A stretch of 64,000 bases of DNA from contig NZ_AUFQ01000007.1 in assembly GCF_000426585.1 (NCBI RefSeq), positions 1-64,000 of the forward strand, in the 5' to 3' direction. The translations under genes were made by a program, and so were the position numbers. Shown here one piece after another: positions 22,361 through 60,339 of this stretch (positions are counted from its first letter, which is position 1; each line of letters starts with the position of its first letter). The notes below the pieces were generated by a model. The model saw only the letters and a list, made by a program, of their open reading frames with translations. It did not search any database and was not told the DNA's origin. This stretch comes from Segatella baroniae DSM 16972 = JCM 13447. GTDB lineage: Bacteria > Bacteroidota > Bacteroidia > Bacteroidales > Bacteroidaceae.

Positions 22361-23704
22361 ATGAACAGCGAACAGCAATACATAGACTTATACACCGAAG
22401 CTGCCGACCTGGTCAAGCGGCATTCTGCCGATGTGCTCAACGCCGTGCGCGACAAGGCTTTCGCAGATTTCAAGGAACAGGGCTTCCCCTCCCGCAAGGT
22501 CGAGCGGTATAAATACACCGACATGGCGCAGTTGTTCAAGCCTGATTACGGGTTGAATCTCAACCGTCTTGAAATCCCCGTCAATCCTTATCAGGCTTTC
22601 AAGTGCGACGTTCCCAATCTCAGCACCTCTCTTTACTTTGTCGTCAACGACAGTTTCTACACGAAATCGCTGCCACAGACCCATATTCCCGATGGTGTCG
22701 TCGTGGATTCCTTGCGCCGTGTGGCCGCAGAAAAGCCCGATTTCATCGAGAAATACTACGCTAAAATCGCCCAAACAGGGACAGACGCCATCACGGCGTT
22801 GAATACGATGCTGGCCCAGGACGGGCTTCTGGTGTATGTTCCGCGCAACGTGAAGGTAGACCGCACGGTGCAGGTCATCAACATCCTTCGTTCCGATGTC
22901 GACCTGATGGTCAACCGCCGTGTGCTGATTGTGCTCGAAGAGGGTGCCGAAGCCAAGTTTTTATTCTGTGACCATGCTTCCGACGACCGCCGTTTCCTGG
23001 CTACGCAGGTCATCGAGGCCTATGTCGGGCGCAATGCCAGCCTCGAACTGAACTGCCTGGAGGAGACACATTACAAGAATACACGCATCAGCAATGTCTA
23101 TATTGAGCAGCAGGCAGACAGCCGTGTCAACCACAACGTCATCACCTTGCACAATGGCGTCACCCGCAATCGACTTGACTTGGTGTTCAAGGGCGAAGGC
23201 GCGGAGTGCCAGTGCAACGGCTGTGTCATAGCCGACAGGAACCAGCATGTGGACAACAATACGCTGATTGACCACCAGGTGCCCCATTGCACCAGCAACG
23301 AACTTTACAAATATGTGCTTGACGATGAGGCTACAAGCGCCTTTGCGGGTCGTGTCCTGGTGAGAAAAGACGCGCAGAAGACCATCAGTCAGGAGACCAA
23401 CCAGAACCTTGTGGCCACCAAGAAGGCCCGTATGTACACGCAGCCCATGCTCGAAATCTATGCCGACGACGTGAAATGCGCCCATGGTTCCACCGTGGGT
23501 CAGCTCAACGACGCGGCCATGTTCTATATGCGTCAGCGTGGAATCAGCGAGCGGGAGGCCAAGTTGCTGCTGGAGTTTGCCTTTGTCAATGAAGTCATCG
23601 ACAAGATGGAGCTTGAACCTTTGCGCGACCGGTTGCACTATCTGGTGGAGAAACGCTTCCGCGGAGAACTCAACAAGTGCGATGGTTGTAAACTTTGCAA
23701 GTAA
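22361..23704 (+). CDS. sufD: Fe-S cluster assembly protein SufD
   Basis: This 447-residue paralogue of SufB completes the SufBC2D scaffold. It has the typical N-terminal helical segment (FPSRKVERYKYTDM), then the beta-helix core with DHQVPHCTSNELYKYVLDD, the FAGRVLVRKDAQKT stretch and C-terminal DDVKCAHGSTVGQLN, where the histidine used in cluster assembly lies. The C-terminus is cysteine-containing (CDGCKLCK), an ending seen in Bacteroidota homologues. It sits 12 bp after sufC and 6 bp before sufS. Confidence 0.94.
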   Translation: MNSEQQYIDLYTEAADLVKRHSADVLNAVRDKAFADFKEQGFPSRKVERYKYTDMAQLFKPDYGLNLNRLEIPVNPYQAFKCDVPNLSTSLYFVVNDSFYTKSLPQTHIPDGVVVDSLRRVAAEKPDFIEKYYAKIAQTGTDAITALNTMLAQDGLLVYVPRNVKVDRTVQVINILRSDVDLMVNRRVLIVLEEGAEAKFLFCDHASDDRRFLATQVIEAYVGRNASLELNCLEETHYKNTRISNVYIEQQADSRVNHNVITLHNGVTRNRLDLVFKGEGAECQCNGCVIADRNQHVDNNTLIDHQVPHCTSNELYKYVLDDEATSAFAGRVLVRKDAQKTISQETNQNLVATKKARMYTQPMLEIYADDVKCAHGSTVGQLNDAAMFYMRQRGISEREAKLLLEFAFVNEVIDKMELEPLRDRLHYLVEKRFRGELNKCDGCKLCK

Positions 23705-26906: not shown

Positions 26907-29900
26907 ATGTCTAAACTACATCTTTCTCACAAGGAGTCCTTGTTTGGCAAGCGGCTTCTGGCGGCAACCTCCCTGCTGGCTGTCGTCTTGGGTGCTACGG
27001 CCCAGTCGCGTCCGCTCTGGATGCGCTATGGTGCCATCTCGCCCGATGGTCGGACAATCGCCTTTTCCTACAAAGGCGACCTCTACACGGTGCCTTCCAG
27101 CGGCGGTGAAGCCCGTCAGTTGACATCCAACGCAGCCTACGATTCCTACCCCGTATGGAGTCCTGATGGGCAAAAAATCGCCTTTTCATCGGCCCGTGAA
27201 GGCAGTCTTGACGTCTTTCTGATAGCCCGTGAAGGCGGTGCCCCCGTCCGATTGACGACAGATAGCGGCAATGAGACGCCCTTGGCTTTTGTCGACGACA
27301 CGCATGTGCTGTTTGAATGCTCCGGTATGCCTTCGCCGCAAAACATCATTTTCCCGAACGGCTCCTTCACGCAGGTGTACCAGGTGGAGACGACGGCAGG
27401 TAGCCGTCCCCGCCTTTTCTCCGAAATTTCCATGCCGGGAATTAGTATCAACAAGGAGGGAGCTGTTCTCTACCACGACGTGAAAGGCTATGAGGACGTC
27501 TGGCGCAAGCATCATACGTCGCCCATCTGCCGCGACGTATGGCTCAAAAGGGACGGGAAATTCACAAAAATGACCCATTTCAACGGTGAAGACCGCAATC
27601 CGGTGTGGGGAGAGGGCGAAACCTATTATTATTTAAGCGAGGAAGACGGCACATTCAACGTCTTCAAGACCAACCTGAGCGGCACGGCCAAGCAACAGCT
27701 CACGCATTTCAAGGGCAACCCCGTGCGTTTCCTGACCCGTTCGGACGATGGGGTGCTGAGCTTCGGCTACGACGGCGAGCTTTATACCCTGCGCGAAGGA
27801 CAGCAGCCCCGGCGTGTGGAGGTCACCGTGACGGCCGACCGCAACGACCAGGACTTGCAGCGGCAGATACGCCGCAGCGGAGCCACCGAGATAGCCCTGT
27901 CGCCCAACGGCAAGGAAGTGGCCTTCATCCTGCACGGCGATGTCTACGTCACTTCGGTGGAATATGCCACCACCCGCCAGATCACCGACACGCCCGAACA
28001 GGAGCGCAGCGTGGATTTTGCACCCGACGGACGCGGCTTGGTCTACGCCAGCGAGCGCGATGGGCTGTGGCAAATCTATCAGAGTACCATCAAGAACAAG
28101 AAGGACGACCTCTTCACCTACGCTTCCGAGATAACGGAAGAGCAGCTCGTCAAGAGCGACAAGACGAGTTTCCAGCCCGTCTACAGTCCCGACGGCAAGA
28201 GCGTGGCCTATCTCGAAGACCGCACCACGCTGCGTGCCGTCGACGTGAAGACCCATGTGTTGCGCACGCTGATGGCCGGCAAGTACATGTATAGCTACAG
28301 CGACGGCGACCAATGGTTCTCCTGGAGTCCCGACAGCCGTTGGCTGCTGGCGAGCTACATCGGCGACGGCGGCTGGAACCACAGCGACGTGGCCCTCGTT
28401 TCGGCCGATGGAAAGGGGGAAATACGCAATCTCACCAACAGCGGCTATAGCGACGGCAACGCCAAGTGGGTGCTCGGCGGCAAGGCCATGGTCTTCGAGA
28501 GCGACCGGGCGGGCTACCGCAGCCACGGTTCGTGGGGTTCGGAGAGCGACGCCTACATCATGTTCTTCGACCTCGACGCCTATGAGCAGTTCAAGATGAC
28601 CAAGGAAGAGTACGCACGATGGAAGGAAACCAGCGAAGCCGAGAAGAAAGAGGCCGAGAAGCGTGAGAAAGAGGAAGCCAAACAGGCCAAGGACAAGAAG
28701 AAAAATCCCAACGCCGTGAAGCCCGAGAAGGTGGAACCGCTGGAGCTGGATGTCGACAACTGCCGCGACCGCGTGGTTCGGCTGACGGTGAACTCGTCGC
28801 ATCTGGGCGACTTCCTGCTCAACAAGGAGGGCGACGCCATCTATTACCAAGCCCGCTTCGAGGGCAGCGCCGACCTGTGGAAGCACAGTCTTCGCGAGGG
28901 CAGCACGGTGATAGTGGCCAAAGGAATCGGTGGCGGCGGCATGACGGCCGACAGGGATTTCAAGAACATCTACCTCTGCAATGGCGGTATCAAGAAGTTC
29001 GACGTGGCCATGAACACCACGAAGTCAGTCGACTTCGAGGCCCGTTTCAACTACCGTCCCTACGCGGAGCGCGCCTACATGTTCAACCATATCTGGCAAC
29101 AAGTGAAGGACAAGTTCTACGATACGAAGCTGCATGGCGTCGACTGGGACGGTTACAAGAAGACCTACGAGCGTTTCCTGCCCTACATCAACAACCGTTA
29201 CGACTTCCGCGACATGCTCTCCGAAATGCTGGGCGAGCTGAACGCGTCGCACACCGGCGCCCGTTTCTATTCCTACGGAGCCGACCTGCGCACGGCCGCG
29301 CTGGGCCTTTTCTACGACGAAAGCCATACGGGTGACGGCCTGAAGATAGCCGAAGTCATCAAGCGCGGGCCTTTTGACGTGCGCGATACGAAGGTGAAGG
29401 CCGGCGATATCATCGAAGCCATCGACGGCGAAAGGATTCTGGCCGGCAAGGACTACAACCATCTGCTCGACGGGAAGGCCGGCAAGCCGGTGCGCGTTAC
29501 GGTGAAGAGTGGCGGCAAAGAGCGTGATGTCGTCGTGCGGGCGATAGGCAAGGGCACTCAAAGCGACCTGCTTTACCAGCGTTGGGTGGACCGCAACCGC
29601 GCGCTGGTCGACAAGTGGTCTGGCGGGCAGCTGGCCTATGTCCACGTGCGGGCGATGGACAGCGAGAGCTTCCGCACGGTCTTCCGCGAACTCCTCTCCG
29701 ACAGCAGCCGGCAGAAGAAGGCCGTCATCGTGGACGAACGTCACAACGGCGGCGGCTGGCTCCACGACGACCTCTGCACGCTCCTGGGCGGCAAGCAGTA
29801 TCAGAGCTTCGTGCCCCGTGGCCAGTTCATCGGCTGGGATCCCTGGAACAAGTGGGTGAAACCGAGTTGTGTGCTCATCTGCGAGGATGATTATTCCAAC

Positions 29901-30173
29901 GGTCACGGCTTCCCGTTCGTCTACAAGACGTTGGGTATCGGCAAACTCATTGGCACTCCCGTGGCGGGTACGATGACGGCCGTGTGGTGGGAGTCGCTGC
30001 TCGATAACCAGATGGTCTTCGGCATACCGCAAGTGGGCTGCGTGGACATGAAGGGCGTGTATGGCGAGAACAACACCTTGCAGCCCGACATAGAAGTCTA
30101 CAACACGCCCGAGGACTATCTCAGCGGCAACGACGCGCAACTTCGCCGTGCCGTCGAGGAAATGCTCAAGTAG
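26907..30173 (+). CDS. Tricorn-like S41 peptidase
   Basis: This 1,088-residue protein resembles archaeal tricorn protease. A signal-like hydrophobic N-terminus (about 15-33) is followed by PD40/WD40-like propeller repeats, e.g. SPDGRTIAFSYKGDLY near 45 and YSPDGKSVAYLED near 425. A charged lysine/glutamate-rich helix covers about 570-610. The tricorn C1 region holds ASHTGAR with Ser781-His782, then comes a PDZ domain (about 800-890). The S41 core has Ser997 in DDYSNGHGF. It would be an exported peptidase that degrades peptides. It ends at a clean intrinsic terminator. Confidence 0.87.
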   Translation: MSKLHLSHKESLFGKRLLAATSLLAVVLGATAQSRPLWMRYGAISPDGRTIAFSYKGDLYTVPSSGGEARQLTSNAAYDSYPVWSPDGQKIAFSSAREGSLDVFLIAREGGAPVRLTTDSGNETPLAFVDDTHVLFECSGMPSPQNIIFPNGSFTQVYQVETTAGSRPRLFSEISMPGISINKEGAVLYHDVKGYEDVWRKHHTSPICRDVWLKRDGKFTKMTHFNGEDRNPVWGEGETYYYLSEEDGTFNVFKTNLSGTAKQQLTHFKGNPVRFLTRSDDGVLSFGYDGELYTLREGQQPRRVEVTVTADRNDQDLQRQIRRSGATEIALSPNGKEVAFILHGDVYVTSVEYATTRQITDTPEQERSVDFAPDGRGLVYASERDGLWQIYQSTIKNKKDDLFTYASEITEEQLVKSDKTSFQPVYSPDGKSVAYLEDRTTLRAVDVKTHVLRTLMAGKYMYSYSDGDQWFSWSPDSRWLLASYIGDGGWNHSDVALVSADGKGEIRNLTNSGYSDGNAKWVLGGKAMVFESDRAGYRSHGSWGSESDAYIMFFDLDAYEQFKMTKEEYARWKETSEAEKKEAEKREKEEAKQAKDKKKNPNAVKPEKVEPLELDVDNCRDRVVRLTVNSSHLGDFLLNKEGDAIYYQARFEGSADLWKHSLREGSTVIVAKGIGGGGMTADRDFKNIYLCNGGIKKFDVAMNTTKSVDFEARFNYRPYAERAYMFNHIWQQVKDKFYDTKLHGVDWDGYKKTYERFLPYINNRYDFRDMLSEMLGELNASHTGARFYSYGADLRTAALGLFYDESHTGDGLKIAEVIKRGPFDVRDTKVKAGDIIEAIDGERILAGKDYNHLLDGKAGKPVRVTVKSGGKERDVVVRAIGKGTQSDLLYQRWVDRNRALVDKWSGGQLAYVHVRAMDSESFRTVFRELLSDSSRQKKAVIVDERHNGGGWLHDDLCTLLGGKQYQSFVPRGQFIGWDPWNKWVKPSCVLICEDDYSNGHGFPFVYKTLGIGKLIGTPVAGTMTAVWWESLLDNQMVFGIPQVGCVDMKGVYGENNTLQPDIEVYNTPEDYLSGNDAQLRRAVEEMLK

Positions 30174-30205
30174 CAGCTTGTCCTTGACGGACTCCTAAAA
30201 GGTCG

Positions 30206-30237
30206 GCCACGCTCTCAGAGGAAGAGCGTGGCTGATT
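30206..30237 (+). terminator. Terminator of the rnhB-WYL-tricorn operon
   Basis: GCCACGCTCT (30206-30215) and AGAGCGTGGC (30223-30232) form a perfect 10-bp stem with a 7-nt loop, followed by TGATTT. Confidence 0.75.
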
Positions 30238-30523
30238 TGCGTTGGTGTAGGAACGATGGAGGGATATGCGGCGGGGTGTCGTTGTTGCTCTTTTGCAGAC
30301 AGGTCGTGGGCGAAGTGTGGGGTGGTCGTGCGTCGGCGTTCATGGATCGAGCCTTTTGTGGGCGACCCCGCTGGGGTCGATGAAGGCGAGCGGGACATCC
30401 CGTAGTCAGCCTATCGGCATGACTACGGGTTATGGAAAGGTGAAGCCTCCGGCTTCATCATCGGCCGTCTTTGCGTAGCGGGCGATTCGTCCTGCTCCCC
30501 ATGTCTGCGGTTTGGGGGCATGT
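30237..30523 (+). repeat. Array module A, copy 1
   Basis: A 287-bp module nearly identical to copy 2. It holds hairpin P3 (CGACCCC/GGGGTCG, 30363-30379), hairpin P2 (CCCGTAGTCA-GCC/GGC-TGACTACGGG, 30399-30429) and hairpin P1 (TGAAGCC/GGCTTCA, 30441-30457). P2 has GTAG at its foot, as in enterobacterial REPs. Confidence 0.8.
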
Positions 30524-30668
30524 GCGCAGGTCGTATGCCTCCTCACGTTTACAGTTTGCGGTCATGTGAGCAGGTCGTGTGCCTCTTCATGTCTGCGGTT
30601 TGCGGTCACGTGAGTGGGTGCATGTCTCCCCATGTCTGCGGTTTGCAGTCATGTGAGCGTGCGTGTGT
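30495..30668 (+). repeat. Tandem 43-44 bp repeats, first block
   Basis: Four units start at 30495, 30539, 30583 and 30626 with the pattern ctccccatgtctgcggtttg, then c(a/g)gtcatgtgag and a short variable GC-rich tail. A fifth, degenerate unit runs into module B. Confidence 0.8.
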
Positions 30669-30690
30669 CTGTCCTGAGACAGCGGATCGT

Positions 30691-30826
30691 GGTCATGTGA
30701 TGAAGCTGGAGGCTTCACCTTATCTGTAACCCGCAGTCATGCCGATAGGCTGACTGCGGGGGAGAGGCAAGTACTGCGTGGAGAGTATCGACTCCAGCGG
30801 AGTCGCCCACGAGCAGTTTGGCCATC
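30691..30826 (-). repeat. Array module B, copy 1 (inverted core of A)
   Basis: It contains P1 (30701-30717), P2 with CCCGCAGTCA/TGACTGCGGG (30730-30760) and P3 with CGACTCC/GGAGTCG (30789-30805) in reversed order. Stem changes relative to A are compensated on the other arm. Confidence 0.8.
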
Positions 30827-31113
30827 TTGCGTTGGCATAGGAACGATGGAGGGATATGCGGCGGGGTGTCGTTGTTGCTCTTTTGCAGGCAGGTCGTGGG
30901 CGAGGTGTGGGGTGGTCGTGCGTCGGCGTTCATGGATTGCGCCTTTTGTGGGCGACCCCGCTGGGGTCGATGTAGAGGGGCCGGACATCCCGTAGTCAGC
31001 CTGTCGGCATGACTACGGGTTATGGAAAGGTGAAGCCTCCGGCTTCATCATCGGCAGTCTTTGTGTAGCGGGCGGTCCATCCTGCTCCCCATGTCTGCGG
31101 TTTGGGGGCATGT
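30827..31113 (+). repeat. Array module A, copy 2
   Basis: It is the same 287-bp module as copy 1 with scattered substitutions (for example ggcatagg for ggtgtagg, gcaggcagg for gcagacagg). It is followed by degenerate tandem-unit remnants to about 31230. Confidence 0.8.
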
Positions 31114-31230
31114 AATGTGTCTTTCCGGGGGGCTGCGGGCTGTGGTCATGAGGTGGATTGCGTGCCTTTCTTGGGTTTGTGAGGTTGCGGTCATGTGACG
31201 GGTCGTATGATTTCCTGTATCTGTAGTTTG

Positions 31231-31398
31231 TGTGCGACCCCGCTGGGGTCGATGAAGGCGAGCGGGACATCCCGTAGTCAGCCTGTCGGCATGACTATGG
31301 GTTATGGAAAGGTGAAGCCTCTGGCTTCATCATCGGTCGCCTTCGCGTAGCGGGTAATCCGTCCTGCTCACCATGTCTGTAGTTTGCGGTCATGTGAG
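31231..31398 (+). repeat. Array module A, copy 3 (5'-truncated)
   Basis: It starts inside A just before P3 and continues through P2 and P1 into the tandem units. The first ~125 bp of the module are absent. Confidence 0.75.
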
Positions 31399-31538
31399 TG
31401 GTCGTGTGCCTCCTCATGTCTGTGGTTTGCAGTCATGTGAGCAGGTCGTATGCCTCCCCATGTCTACAGTTTGGGGTATGTGAGTGGCTGCATGTCTCCT
31501 CATGTCTGTGGTTTGCAGTCATGTGAGCGTGCGTGTGC
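31367..31538 (+). repeat. Tandem 42-44 bp repeats, second block
   Basis: Four units start at 31367, 31410, 31454 and 31496, matching the first block. They lead into module B copy 2. Confidence 0.8.
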
Positions 31539-31560
31539 CTGGTCGGAGACAGTCGATAGC

Positions 31561-31695
31561 GGTCATGTGATGAAGCCAGAGGCTTCACCTTTCTGTAACC
31601 CGCAGTCATGCCGATAGGCTGACTGCGGGGGAGAGGCAAGTACTGCGTGGAGAGTATCGACTCCAGCGGAGTCGCCCACGAGCAGTTTGGCCATC
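31561..31695 (-). repeat. Array module B, copy 2
   Basis: Nearly identical to B copy 1. In P1 it has GAAGCC/GGCTTC (fully paired), where copy 1 has GAAGC/GCTTC with a larger loop. It ends about 23 bp before the stop codon of the transposase gene. Confidence 0.8.
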
Positions 31696-31717
31696 CATGG
31701 ACTATCCCCCGAAGCAT

Positions 31718-32179
31718 TCACTCTATCCAGTCTTTTCGGAAATAGTCTTCATCATATTGAATACCGACCTCCCGCATGATTTGTTTTAGCTCATCTATGA
31801 ATGACATCTTCTTGTGGTGCTCCTTCTGTCTCCTGACATATTCCACCACATAAGCCTTTTCGGACTCGCTATAGGAAATGGCGCAATAGCCTATTCCCCA
31901 CCCATTGAACATGGGAAACTCGCGGGGATGGCTTTTGATGAAGTTGCCGGCAGACTTTTTCAGCTCCCTTACAAAATCGGCCAGGCAAACGTCGGGGCGC
32001 AAAGAAACAAACATGTGGATGTGGTCGGGCATGGAGTTGATCCTGAGAAGGCAGATGTCATGGGCTCTGCAGTAAGCCAATATGTATGCGTAGAGGTCCC
32101 GCTCATGAGCTTCGTTGATGGTTCGTTGGGATTGATAGGTGCGAAATACGATGTGGTAATAGAGTTTGGAGTAACTCAT
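31718..32179 (-). CDS. IS200/IS605-type Y1 transposase (RAYT-like)
   Basis: This 153-residue HUH transposase has the metal-binding motif MPDHIHMFVSL (His53, His55) and the catalytic tyrosine, probably Tyr114, in VVEYVRRQKEHHKK. Such enzymes cut single-stranded DNA at hairpin feet. The start MSYSKLYY at 32179 is chosen; the open frame to 32287 runs through the promoter. No tnpB is present. Its 3' end touches a large palindromic array, the situation of REP-associated tyrosine transposases, which are domesticated single-copy relatives of IS200. A plain solo IS200-like insertion is the alternative. Confidence 0.85.
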   Translation of the reverse strand: MSYSKLYYHIVFRTYQSQRTINEAHERDLYAYILAYCRAHDICLLRINSMPDHIHMFVSLRPDVCLADFVRELKKSAGNFIKSHPREFPMFNGWGIGYCAISYSESEKAYVVEYVRRQKEHHKKMSFIDELKQIMREVGIQYDEDYFRKDWIE

Positions 32180-32204
32180 GGCATTTGAAGTTGGTTGTTT
32201 GATG

Positions 32205-32212
32205 CAAAGGTA
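32205..32212 (-). promoter_or_regulatory. Promoter -7 box for the Y1 transposase (TACCTTTG)
   Basis: It reads TACCTTTG on the minus strand about 26 bp upstream of the start, arguing that the gene is expressed. Confidence 0.6.
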
Positions 32213-32665
32213 ATGATAGATTCTCAATCGAACAAGAATCGGCCGTAGGGCATTTCCCTTCGTTTCTCCCCTTGTGAAACATTGCATAGGGCCGCCCTTC
32301 GCCGGCAGGCTTCGACAGCAATCGGTCTCTCGCCGTTTTTTTACTCGTCAACGCCCGCTTCGACATAAAGGAAGGATGGCGCTTGCCGTGCAGGAAAAGT
32401 GCTTGAAGCCAGTCGTTTATGCCCGCTTGCGCCGTCGCCGGCCGTCGCCTGTTTTCAAAAGCAGCGCGGCGGCGTTGCGAAAGCTGCCCTTTGACCTGCT
32501 GAAAGCTGTGCTTCGAGCTTGCGAAAGCTGCTCTTTTGCCGCGTCAAAGGGCAGCTTTCGCCTTTCGGTCGCTGCGCTTTTGTCGCTTGGTCGGGCCGTA
32601 CCATCGTTTTGTGTTAATATATATTTAAAATGAGAAAGGAAATGATAAGGTTATGAAATAAGTCG
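32213..32665. other. Gene-free region between transposase and DeoR regulator
   Basis: There is no supported gene. It contains the repeat-like block 32470-32570 described separately. From about 32,600 it turns AT-rich ahead of the DeoR promoter. A 119-codon plus-strand open frame (32274-32633) has the composition of repeats and is not called. Confidence 0.5.
32477..32561. repeat. 19-bp inverted repeat within AAAGCTGC-type units
   Basis: GCGAAAGCTGCCCTTTGAC (32477-32495) and its exact complement (32543-32561) flank internal half-units (tgaaagctgtgcttcgagct, tgcgaaagctgctcttttgc). The same motif family (aaagcagccctttgac) recurs at 50380-50520 and 60140-60280. Confidence 0.7.
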
Positions 32666-32673
32666 TATATTTG
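32666..32673 (+). promoter_or_regulatory. Promoter -7 box for the DeoR-type gene (TATATTTG)
   Basis: It matches TAnnTTTG 26 bp before the ATG. Confidence 0.6.
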
Positions 32674-32699
32674 TCGCATTAATCAACAACAATCAGGAG

Positions 32700-33476
32700 A
32701 TGACGAAAGAAGATAGACACAATGCCATTCTGGAACAATTGTTTAAGGCAGACTCTGTGTTGGTCTCAGACCTGGCTGAATTGCTGGAAGTGTCGTCCGT
32801 GACGATCAGAAAAGACCTGACTGACCTTGAAAAAGCTGGAAAACTATACCGCAGCCATGGAAAAGCGATCGCCATCAACCCCTTCACGAGCAACCGTTCG
32901 GTCAACGAGAAGGAAAAGCTCTTCCCAGAAGAGAAGTACAGCATAGGCACCGAAGCCGCCAAGTTCATCACCCCCAACGACTCGATCATCATCGCCTCAG
33001 GCACCACCATCCATGCTTTCGCCCACTGCGTGAAGCCCGTCAACAAGCTGACGGTCGTGTCGGCGTCGCTACAGTCGTCGATCGTACTGTCGCAAGACGA
33101 CAACATCGACATCATCCAACTGGGCGGAATGCTGCGCCACAGCAGCGAGTCGGTGGTGGGAGACTACAGCGAGGTGCTGCTCAAAGGCTGCGCCTTCAGC
33201 AAGCTTTTCATGGGCGTGGACGGCATAGACTTCGACTTCGGCATCACCACCACCGACATGCGGGAGGCCCATCTGAACCAGAAGATGATGCAGGCGGCCC
33301 AGAAGACCATCGTGCTGGCCGACTCGTCGAAGTTCGGGCGCAAGGGATTCGCCAAGATCGGCGACATGGAAGAGGTGGACATGATCATCACCGACAGCCA
33401 TGTGAAGCCTTCCGACGTGCGGCGGATAGAGGAACTCGGCATAGAACTGATCATTGCGCACGGAAAAGGGAGTTGA
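32700..33476 (+). CDS. DeoR/GlpR-family transcriptional regulator
   Basis: This 258-residue repressor-type protein has an N-terminal DeoR winged helix (1-57: RHNAILEQLFKADSVLVSDL in part, then VSSVTIRKDLTDLEKAGKL) and a C-terminal sugar-phosphate-sensing DeoRC domain (about 75-235, with ITPNDSIIIASGTTIHAFA and the LADSSKFGRKGFAKIG motif). Such proteins sense phosphorylated sugars. The downstream acyltransferase begins after 114 bp; a GH110 galactosidase lies three genes on, so control of carbohydrate genes is possible but not shown. Confidence 0.88.
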   Translation: MTKEDRHNAILEQLFKADSVLVSDLAELLEVSSVTIRKDLTDLEKAGKLYRSHGKAIAINPFTSNRSVNEKEKLFPEEKYSIGTEAAKFITPNDSIIIASGTTIHAFAHCVKPVNKLTVVSASLQSSIVLSQDDNIDIIQLGGMLRHSSESVVGDYSEVLLKGCAFSKLFMGVDGIDFDFGITTTDMREAHLNQKMMQAAQKTIVLADSSKFGRKGFAKIGDMEEVDMIITDSHVKPSDVRRIEELGIELIIAHGKGS

Positions 33477-50295: not shown

Positions 50296-50814
50296 TTCCG
50301 TCGTCCCGTCGTGCGCGTCTGTCCGACCCGCCGCCGTCCTTCCGCATTCCAGAAGCCGTGCTTTGACCGCGCAAGAGCTGTCCTTTTGCAAGGTGAAAGG
50401 GCCGCGATTGCGCTGTAAAAGGGCAGCTTTTGCAAGGTAAAAAGGCTGCGGTTGCAAGATAAAAGGATAGCTTTTGCAAAATGAAAGCAGCCCTTTGACA
50501 AATTGAAAAGGCTGCTTCCATATTTCATCGGAATGTCATTTCACATTTCACACTTCACATTTCTCATTCATTGGAATGTCATTTCACATTCCTCACTTCA
50601 CATTTCTCATTCATTGGAATGTCATTCCACATTCCACACTTCACATTTCACATTCAGCGAAGCCCCATTTCACATTCCACACTTCACACTTCACATTCCT
50701 CATTTCCCATTCTCTTCCGCCAAATGCGGCGGAAAATAAAAAAAACACGCATTGGCTGTCCCTCTTTCGATTGTCAGTTGTATTACCAATAGAACAATCT
50801 AAAAGACCAACCAC
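50296..50814. repeat. Repeat-rich, gene-free region upstream of FecR
   Basis: Two repeat families fill this gap. From about 50380 to 50520 there are tandem ~23-bp units of the type aaaaggctgc-ttgcaag. From 50530 there are three 43-bp tandem units (starts 50530, 50573, 50616) based on ggaatgtcatttcacattcc and cacttcacatttctcattc, then further TTCACATT-type units to about 50715. Open frames here come from the repeats. No TAnnTTTG box precedes the FecR gene. Confidence 0.75.
50470..50568 (+). repeat. 99-bp direct repeat, left copy
   Basis: It matches 60225-60323 with five mismatches over 99 bp. It includes the stem AAGCAGCC/GGCTGCTT around an A/T-rich loop. The pair brackets the glycan utilization locus. 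Confidence 0.8.
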
Positions 50815-59163: not shown

Positions 59164-59372
59164 ATTAGGAATGTGAAATGTGGAATGTGAATTGATAAAT
59201 GTGAAGTGTGAAGTGAGGAATGTGAATTGAGAAGTTTGAAATGTGGAGTGTGAAATGAACTCCACGCTCCACACATCTCGTTCTTCATATCCCATTCTGA
59301 TATCCATTTCACACTTCAAACTCCACATTCCTCACTTCTCATTCCACATTTCACACTTCACATTTATCAGGT
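59164..59372. repeat. GTGAAATGTGGAATG-type repeats forming a long inverted repeat
   Basis: The left half (59168-59262) has repeated gtgaaatgtgg/aatgtgaa units, and the right half (59300-59368) carries the complementary form. GATAAATGTGAAGTGTGAA (59194-59212) has an exact complement at 59350-59368. The transcript of the last susCD-operon gene could fold into a long hairpin here. The same units occur at 50530-50715 and 60286-60345. Confidence 0.75.
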
Positions 59373-60104: not shown

Positions 60105-60339
60105 ACGCCCCGACAGCGTCCGCACGGCAACATGCGTAGACTGTCCGGCAAAAGGGCCGCGATTGCTTCACCAAAGGGCCGCGATTGCAACGTAAAAGGA
60201 CTGCTTTTGCGAGGTAAAAAGACTGCTTTTGCAAAATGAAAGCAGCCCTTTGACAAACTGAAAAGGCTGCTTCCATATTTCATTGGAATGTCATTTCACA
60301 TACCTCACTTCACATTTCTCATTTCACACTTCACATTCC
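60105..60339. repeat. Repeat-rich region after the sigma gene
   Basis: It has tandem ~23-bp units (aaaagggccgcgattgc, then aaaaggactgcttttgc) at about 60145-60235. The 99-bp direct repeat shared with 50470-50568 follows, then TTCACATT-type units to the end of the EnvC gene. There is no gene here. Confidence 0.75.
60225..60323 (+). repeat. 99-bp direct repeat, right copy
   Basis: It matches the copy at 50470-50568 in the same orientation, five mismatches in 99 bp. It lies between the sigma gene and the convergent EnvC-like gene. Confidence 0.8.

Follow-up and report, generated by a model that had tools for sequence, protein, structure and literature searches.

The DNA analysed here, in the following called the window, comprises positions 1 to 64,000 of contig NZ_AUFQ01000007.1 of Segatella baroniae DSM 16972 = JCM 13447 (assembly GCF_000426585.1). 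It contains tnpA, a gene for a Y1/HUH transposase, which is adjoined by an array of palindromic modules, each built from three hairpins (a, b and c). We regard it as likely that gene and modules belong to a system similar to repetitive extragenic palindromes (REPs) and their doublets forming hairpins (REPINs), in which the acting enzyme is an IS200-like Y1 transposase (subclass 1.2). This reading is based on the class of the gene, the structure of the modules including covariation, their dispersal, the recurrence of the same layout beside related genes in several phyla, and orthologous sites that are occupied in one genome and empty in another.

The initial annotation had described a single HUH Y1 transposase and proposed a system like that of REPs and REP-associated tyrosine transposases (RAYTs). 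The former statement is correct, because tnpA is intact and the only Y1_Tnp gene found in its own genome (G000; G and L numbers are our identifiers for genomes and loci). The protein scores 75.2 bits with Pfam PF01797 (cut-off 23) and passes the NCBIfam IS200 model (64.5 bits, cut-off 55), and its AlphaFold model has a pLDDT (predicted local distance difference test) of 88.8, with ISDra2, IS608 and TnpA_REP as solved relatives. Pfam, NCBIfam IS200 and the AlphaFold model hence agree that tnpA encodes a Y1/HUH enzyme. According to the cited parts of Quentin et al. (2018; PMC6006769), RAYT or TnpA_REP proteins form class 2 of TnpA_Y1 with the motif YxxNP, while subclass 1.2 is characterised by DH[IV]H, Y---Q--HH, about 148 aa and a low copy number; there, it is listed with 'no' under REP, without a given role and with a range mostly in Cyanobacteria and Bacteroidetes. 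The window TnpA is without YxxNP and carries YVRRQ (Y---Q--HH type), the Y, Q and HH columns being invariant in both alignments examined. It also fails the NCBIfam REP-transposase model (REP_Tyr_transpos; 26 bits, cut-off 80). In a tree of 58 rows, which took 28 of the 80 named loci introduced below, four class-2 and three class-1.1 rows, with subclass labels assigned by motif, the window TnpA is found in a starred clade of seven rows (98/96) together with G118, G051, G004, G077, G038 and G093. Class 2 splits off at 98/97, and E. coli rayT stands apart from the window clade. The tree alone is insufficient against a grouping of the window TnpA with class 2, because the approximately unbiased (AU) test with four class-2 rows gave p = 0.114. 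Nevertheless, motifs, model score and tree taken together show that the window TnpA fits subclass 1.2 and is no RAYT. A true RAYT of class 2 with unusual REPs, as first proposed, could point to the similar genome organisation and to the AU test, but it is very improbable in view of Y---Q--HH instead of YxxNP, the 26 bits, the subclass-1.2 clade and the foot GTAA described below; RAYT identity was rejected on motif, model score and tree, and what stands of the proposal is the REP/RAYT-like organisation. Upstream of the gene, TAccTTTG (32205..32212, minus strand) is a possible promoter box of the Bacteroidota -7 type, judged from the letters.

The array spans positions 30359-31678 and consists of five three-hairpin half-modules (a-b-c) in both orientations (Table 1). 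It lies between tnpA and a large open frame ending at 30173, which by eye we take to be S41-type peptidase-like. Repeat finding, pattern match (four half-modules) and alignment (all five) bear out the array that had been annotated, and the annotated 43-bp tandem units are real as well, with 43 or 44 bp; opposed half-modules stand tail to tail around them. The 3' end of tnpA does not quite touch the array as had been stated, since about 43 nt separate it from the nearest hairpin c. Read towards c, hairpin a is TGAAGCC-nnn-GGCTTCA, the a-b gap of 11-12 nt ends in GTAA or ATAA, hairpin b has 10 + 3 pairs, and hairpin c follows after a b-c gap of 19-28 nt. The GTAG foot of the earlier description had to be given up: CCCGTAG is located inside stem b and was rejected as foot on the folded structure, and the real foot 5' of b, on the other strand, is GTAA/ATAA.

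Table 1. Features of the tnpA locus in the window.
Feature	Position	Strand	Details
Half-module	30359..30457	-	c 30363-30379, b 30399-30429, a 30441-30457; foot ATAA
44-bp tandem repeats, 3.8 copies	30495..30658		between a ends of two opposed half-modules
Half-module	30701..30809	+	a 30701-30717, foot GTAA 30726-30729, b 30730-30760, c 30789-30805
Half-module	30949..31047	-	c 30953-30969, b 30989-31019, a 31031-31047; foot ATAA; folded
Half-module	31231..31329	-	c 31235-31251, b 31271-31301, a 31313-31329
43-bp tandem repeats, 3.6 copies	31372..31527		between a ends of two opposed half-modules
Half-module nearest tnpA	31571..31678	+	a 31571-31587, foot GTAA 31595-31598, b 31599-31629, c 31658-31674; folded
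tnpA, Y1/HUH transposase	31718..32179	-	intact, 153 aa; DHIH, YVRRQKEHH; fits TnpA_Y1 subclass 1.2

Folding was done with two window modules and one dispersed module. As single-stranded DNA, the half-module nearest tnpA has a best fold of -30.2 kcal/mol (z -5.56), which contains hairpins a and b, while its centroid contains a, b and c; the half-module 30949-31047 shows exactly a, b and c in best fold and centroid (z -5.55). For each of the two, none of 200 shuffles folded as well. The dispersed module L026 also lies below its shuffles in energy (z -4.40), with a best fold that does not include hairpin a. Furthermore, in an alignment of 21 window and dispersed modules of the own genome 98.2% of 566 cells pair, compared with 30-49% when partners are slid, and 35 cells changed on both sides vs 10.5 in shuffles. 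Two of five covariation measures were not clearly above shuffles, namely both-side-changed pairs (6, reached by 37/500 shuffles) and further pair types (13, reached by 341/500). A search of 29800-32700 against Rfam gave zero matches, and the tandem repeats at 31372-31527 have no match elsewhere in the genome among the matches listed.

Modules of the same kind are present beside other subclass-1.2 genes. Among 120 genomes of the genus, some Y1 match was obtained in 73, and subclass 1.2 was counted in 25, hereafter carriers. Y---Q--HH was read in 24 of them, the gene of G002 being broken before the motif; weaker Y1 matches were put in other classes by profile score, and the 20 that were read all bear NP. 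A scan of genomes of 84,980 species resulted in 80 further loci, the best 80 of 579, the best 76 carriers of the motif aside These named loci belong to eleven phyla according to the NCBI ranks of record titles, many records being metagenome-assembled genomes: Bacteroidota (26), Verrucomicrobiota (20), Planctomycetota (14), Acidobacteriota (9), Lentisphaerota (4), Ignavibacteriota (2) and one each from Chloroflexota, Myxococcota, Zixiibacteriota, Kiritimatiellota and Cloacimonadota. A restriction to a Bacteroidota version, as originally suggested, can therefore not be maintained, since the same kind occurs at loci in several phyla.

Altogether 103 loci were available, 101 of which had both flanks of at least 150 nt and entered an inverted-flank test, and 95 had at least 300 nt and entered a test with a layout descriptor; the genus set of 23 in the latter is without L041, whose gene is interrupted by a stop, and L065, which has a partial gene. 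In the former test, the two 300-nt flanks were mutually inverted repeats above the 99% point of the cross-locus null at 51 of 101 loci. The window locus reached a score of 14 between its two flanks. The highest score, 356, was observed for L127 on an Akkermansia sp. contig, where very long inverted repeats flank tnpA. The layout descriptor found a module on both sides of the gene at 47/95 loci and on at least one side at 72/95 (58/72 named and 14/23 genus loci), compared with 0/95 and 6/95 on dinucleotide shuffles and 0/65 and 2/65 at pseudo-gene positions of the same loci. At class-2 Y1 genes of the same genus it found none within 300 nt, neither on both sides (0/19) nor on any side (0/19); these controls were not sorted into subclasses, and one of originally 20 was dropped due to a missing flank. 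No module was found by the descriptor at the three loci of Ignavibacteriota and Cloacimonadota, and the window locus fails it too, probably because its stem a has 57% GC with a threshold of 60%.

The layout is rather uniform: hairpins a and b are about 12 nt apart, with an NTAG/NCAG foot at the end of this gap, and c follows b after about 23 nt. Among 89 modules from 62 loci, a set filtered on both gap lengths, 64 have an a-b gap of 11-13 nt and 70 a b-c gap of 21-25 nt; [TC]AG directly precedes the b stem in 49, N[TC]AG is at or near it in 72, and b itself has 78 distinct sequences. Hairpins a and c are often followed by GAC, so that the other strand reads GTC before the stem. A covariance model (R1) was made from 32 modules of named loci fitting the canonical size; genus loci were not used in building it, although some named loci may come from its relatives. 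R1 had a match (E <=0.01) at a distance of up to about 1.5 kb from the gene at 16/22 genus loci, L050 being left out, and at 0/25 control loci (20 class 2, three further class 2 and two class 1.1). The misses are the window, G004, G051, G077 and G118, i.e. members of the TnpA clade to which the window gene belongs, and G016. Tandem repetition of whole or partial modules is also found upstream of tnpA, as 95-bp units in Pan216 and about 64-bp units in B. xylanisolvens (L146, L158).

The sequences flanking tnpA are repeated in the genomes that carry it. Own tnpA-flank sequence was found more than once in all ten genus carriers tested (10/10), and any match was obtained in one of ten non-carriers; the non-carrier G063 gave 15 matches (best E 1.3e-8). 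The numbers per carrier, in which the query copy and, where present, copies on the opposite side of the gene are included, were 67 (G059), 44 (G002), 32 (G091), 31 (G064), 26 (G016), 18 (G093), 10 (G051), 5 (G025), 4 (G118) and 2 (G077). Among the matches listed, those of carriers fall on the segment of their own genome, within a few bases at joints, and copies away from the gene exist in G002, G016, G059, G064 and G093. In six genomes from elsewhere, the number of matches was 41 in the planctomycete Pan216, 47 in Gemmataceae, 22 in Haloferula, 10 in Bacteroides xylanisolvens XB1A, 8 in an acidobacterium and 4 in a verrucomicrobium; all six have copies away from the gene, and one match fell on another genome's segment. 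Thus, own flanks recur in 16/16 carrier genomes tested, and in at least 11 of the 16 beyond the surroundings of the gene. The palindrome CCCAGGGCNNNGCCCTGGG occurs up to 177 times in 22/120 genus genomes (12/25 carriers vs 10/95 non-carriers, p = 9e-5); the reversed control was absent from all 120.

In the own genome, a consensus search of which 40 of 41 candidates were scored revealed, on contigs other than that of the window, 29 elements with a length of 140 nt or more, plus one 51-nt piece. The search for modules that had been advised thus showed that they are not confined to this locus. Near full length and 93-98% identity to the consensus were found for 19 of the 29, and the high identity among these copies suggests a recent spread. 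The 17 aligned elements are inverted doublets (a-b-c/c'-b'-a'), L023 with an altered left half. By a simple open-frame test of intergenic position, 7/17 are not overlapped by any open frame of 120 aa or more; the other 10 have an overlapping frame, and one frame of each tested against Pfam gave no match. Outward of the core doublet stands a second three-hairpin-like family, D-E-F, with a CAGG foot at E. D and E are both present at 15/17 loci (L023-L037), spaced mostly 47-49 nt from D to E and 40 nt from E to F in one orientation, and together with the cores they form mosaics like bacterial interspersed mosaic elements (BIMEs); in the window, one F-like match stands alone at 23335.

Traces of gain or loss came from relatives. 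Two exact copies of the palindrome were present at 13 of 19 fetched places in G045, 125 bp apart (b-b') in 10/13. Six G045 sites were queried in 200 genomes, with at most two candidates scored each, and five stretches were fetched. At the first site, the relative G042 is without 369 aligned bases which hold the element in G045; at the second, G047 and G117 are without the element that is present in G045; at the third, G042 and G045 share rearranged remains. Such occupied and empty orthologous sites show gain or loss, not its mechanism.

These elements could also stem from an ordinary insertion sequence (IS) of the IS200/IS605 type with unusual ends, with the tnpA unit itself as the transposing entity and the doublets as its internal-deletion derivatives, i.e. 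miniature inverted-repeat transposable elements (MITEs). The dispersed doublet halves equal the a-b-c sets flanking tnpA in G042 and G045, which would fit such derivatives, and the protein passes the NCBIfam IS200 cut-off. However, the own genome has a single Y1 gene and not several near-identical copies of a tnpA unit, an argument qualified by several genus genomes with more than one Y1 gene, and the two tnpA copies of G045 represent a 1954-bp tandem duplication. Moreover, the ends are inverted three-hairpin sets and not single hairpins, and plasmids seldom carry the gene: among 72,556 records, 2 have a full-length match to the L145 protein with 40% identity or more, and 15 have any match. 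We therefore consider an ordinary IS unlikely.

Several observations weigh against the REP/REPIN-like reading. Among the matches listed, copies in G025, G051, G077, G091 and G118 are located near the gene. A cleavage site or exact insertion boundary was not found in these comparisons, the boundaries of the empty sites not being sharp. The layout descriptor was written after viewing the loci, and the genomes of the genus are non-independent samples. At the window itself, R1 gives the modules at most 3.4 bits and G000 has no match, so the link between gene and modules rests here on layout; the window modules share layout, foot position and order with the cross-phylum modules, not sequence. They occur on the 3' side of tnpA alone, with c nearest the gene and none upstream, and their identity to the dispersed family is about 75%, with copy G000:C6 as intermediate (86%). 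Finally, 24/95 genomes without a detected subclass-1.2 gene hold module matches, and seven non-carriers have 18 or more (G028, G032, G047, G048, G063, G097 and G111).

The last point concerns the coupling of gene and modules, which the initial annotation expected to follow each other. With 36 candidates scored per genome, R1 matched in 18/25 carriers vs 24/95 non-carriers (Fisher p = 3e-5, kinship ignored), and populations of 16 or more were present in 11/25 carriers and 7/95 non-carriers. The expectation is hence correct in so far as modules are commoner in carriers, but coupling is loose because seven non-carriers hold large populations, and modules can persist without the gene. A profile search for subclass 1.2 in the 24 non-carriers yielded a clear truncated gene in G116 and, weakly, a fragment in G097; G011 also matched weakly, with a class-2 gene. 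The G116 gene (L272, G116:C28:1265-1555) matches positions 1-104 of 150 and is without the tyrosine part, and this genome still has modules.

Large populations in G028, G047 and G063 without the gene would be expected if the modules were RNA or DNA elements maintained by the host, e.g. terminators, mRNA stabilisers or gyrase sites, with the transposase as a neighbour or fossil. Eight terminator-like sites in 30100-32720, compared with a shuffled mean of 2.2 (sd 1.8), point in the same direction, two of them being hairpin a. Nevertheless, such a host function is quite improbable as an explanation. The listed flank copies almost all fall on the query segment of their own genome, orthologous sites differ in presence and absence, and modules have a fixed placement at genes of one class, which the 19 class-2 genes do not show. 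Furthermore, among 398 genus genomes (G000 included; at most two candidates scored per genome) the G000 element has no full-length match in the 397 others, and it has partial matches in 10 of them, a figure which is weak for counts owing to that same scoring.

The divergence between window and dispersed modules leaves room for the possibility, which we judge as less probable than its opposite but deserving attention, that another, now lost transposase spread the dispersed family and that the window array is a separate local family. Apart from the identity of about 75% to most dispersed modules and the intermediate at 86%, this would fit the D-E-F family around the dispersed cores, for which no second Y1 gene was found, and hairpin c beside the G118 tnpA, which has dispersed-family sequence. 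On the other hand, window and dispersed modules share order, similar spacing and the foot GTAA/ATAA, and one Y1 gene was found in the genome. The dispersed elements may therefore be cognate to the window tnpA, but activity of this TnpA on them is the least certain step of the REP/REPIN-like reading, because its modules are 3' only and share just that identity with the family.

In the proposed mechanism, the unit would be a three-hairpin half-module, i.e. hairpins a and b separated by about 11-13 nt, the last four of which form the tetranucleotide foot (mostly NTAG or NCAG, GTAA/ATAA in this genome), and hairpin c about 19-28 nt beyond b. Two inverted halves (a-b-c/c'-b'-a') would make up a non-autonomous element of about 230-260 bp. 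Such scattered doublets appear to resemble the tnpA unit without its gene, because the same halves flank tnpA in related genomes, with c next to the gene. A TnpA dimer might bind the folded hairpin b on single-stranded (lagging-strand) DNA and cut the module, and the foot could guide the choice of the cleavage site, by analogy to what is described for IS608/ISDra2 and TnpA_REP in the cited parts of PMC8266576. In TnpA_REP, A3G4 of GTAG select CT (PMC8266576); with a foot acting in this way, cutting of GTAA modules at TT or TA might speculatively be expected. Hairpins a and c are perhaps bound as well, as their nearly fixed spacing suggests. The doublets would in this manner be mobilised, either copied or moved, while tnpA itself would be kept at low copy.

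Compared with known systems, the organisation is most easily related to REP, BIME and REPIN sequences with their RAYT (E. coli rayT). As far as the cited parts of PMC2817692 and PMC8266576 describe them, both combine one or few Y1 genes per genome with palindromes that are scattered as inverted pairs and bear a tetranucleotide foot on the 5' side of the hairpin (GTAG in REP, mostly NTAG in subclass-1.2 modules), and in both, palindrome families are mixed in mosaics, sometimes with local clusters near the gene. In contrast to them, the enzyme is of class 1 (Y---Q--HH) and not class 2 (YxxNP), three hairpins at near-fixed spacing replace the one of REP, the foot in the window is GTAA/ATAA, and the window gene is not flanked by two inverted REPs with a GTAG/GTGG foot, its modules being 3' only. 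Y---Q--HH, DHIH, about 150 aa and low copy number agree with subclass 1.2 as characterised in the cited parts of PMC6006769, but the 'no' under REP does not agree with three-hairpin partners, and our loci come from eleven phyla, with no cyanobacterial chromosome locus in the sample. Fold and catalytic residues are shared with IS200/IS605 (subclass 1.1; IS608, ISDra2), for which the same source gives a subterminal hairpin at each end, many near-identical copies and often tnpB, unlike the inverted three-hairpin sets and the low-copy gene found here. TnpA_REP subclass 2.6 and class 3 are likewise flanked by non-canonical ('atypical') secondary structures there, with structure copies elsewhere in the genome for the mostly Bacteroidetes subclass 2.6 (PMC6006769); however, their Y motifs differ, and 19 class-2 loci of the genus have no three-hairpin module within 300 nt. 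CGTC-tagged palindromes are dispersed and tagged too and occur in Bacteroidetes among other phyla without a known transposase, but as single stems of 8-9 bp in dimers, according to the cited parts of PMC3733652. The BrickBuilt MITE of Porphyromonas gingivalis is another Bacteroidota element with internal tandem repeats and with filled and empty sites, yet its terminal inverted repeats match ISPg elements, and the cited parts of PMC4596501 describe neither a Y1 link nor a three-hairpin module. Six palindrome strings were not found in the 5.39 million open-access papers to which this search was restricted.

Other repeats were noticed in the window as well. Tandem repeats of 22 bp and similar make-up at 32476-32536 (about 300 nt upstream of tnpA), 50383-50479 and 60149-60234 possibly represent another dispersed family, and CATTTCA-type repeat arrays of 7/14/21/43 bp are situated at 50524-50711, 59170-59365 and 60292-60337.

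REP-type systems are of a known kind, and new would be the subclass-1.2 enzyme with three-hairpin modules across phyla. We lean towards the wider assumption that subclass-1.2 TnpA enzymes are a second lineage of REP-type single-strand DNA enzymes, separate from RAYTs and spread over many phyla (Bacteroidota, Verrucomicrobiota, Planctomycetota, Acidobacteriota, Lentisphaerota, Chloroflexota and others), that they act on a compound end of three hairpins with a guide foot, and that the scattered doublets are mobile and a widespread, unrecognised source of intergenic palindromes. Subclass 1.2, which was described in 2018 as an IS200 relative without IS features, REPs or role, hence gains a conserved structured partner, and its function becomes directly testable. 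The findings suggest that REP-type systems arose from the Y1 superfamily more than once. They would explain scattered palindromes, unnamed in the open literature searched, in genomes of Bacteroidota, Verrucomicrobiota and Planctomycetota, and would add new enzymes acting on single-stranded DNA, for which a short guide beside a hairpin may determine the cut site.

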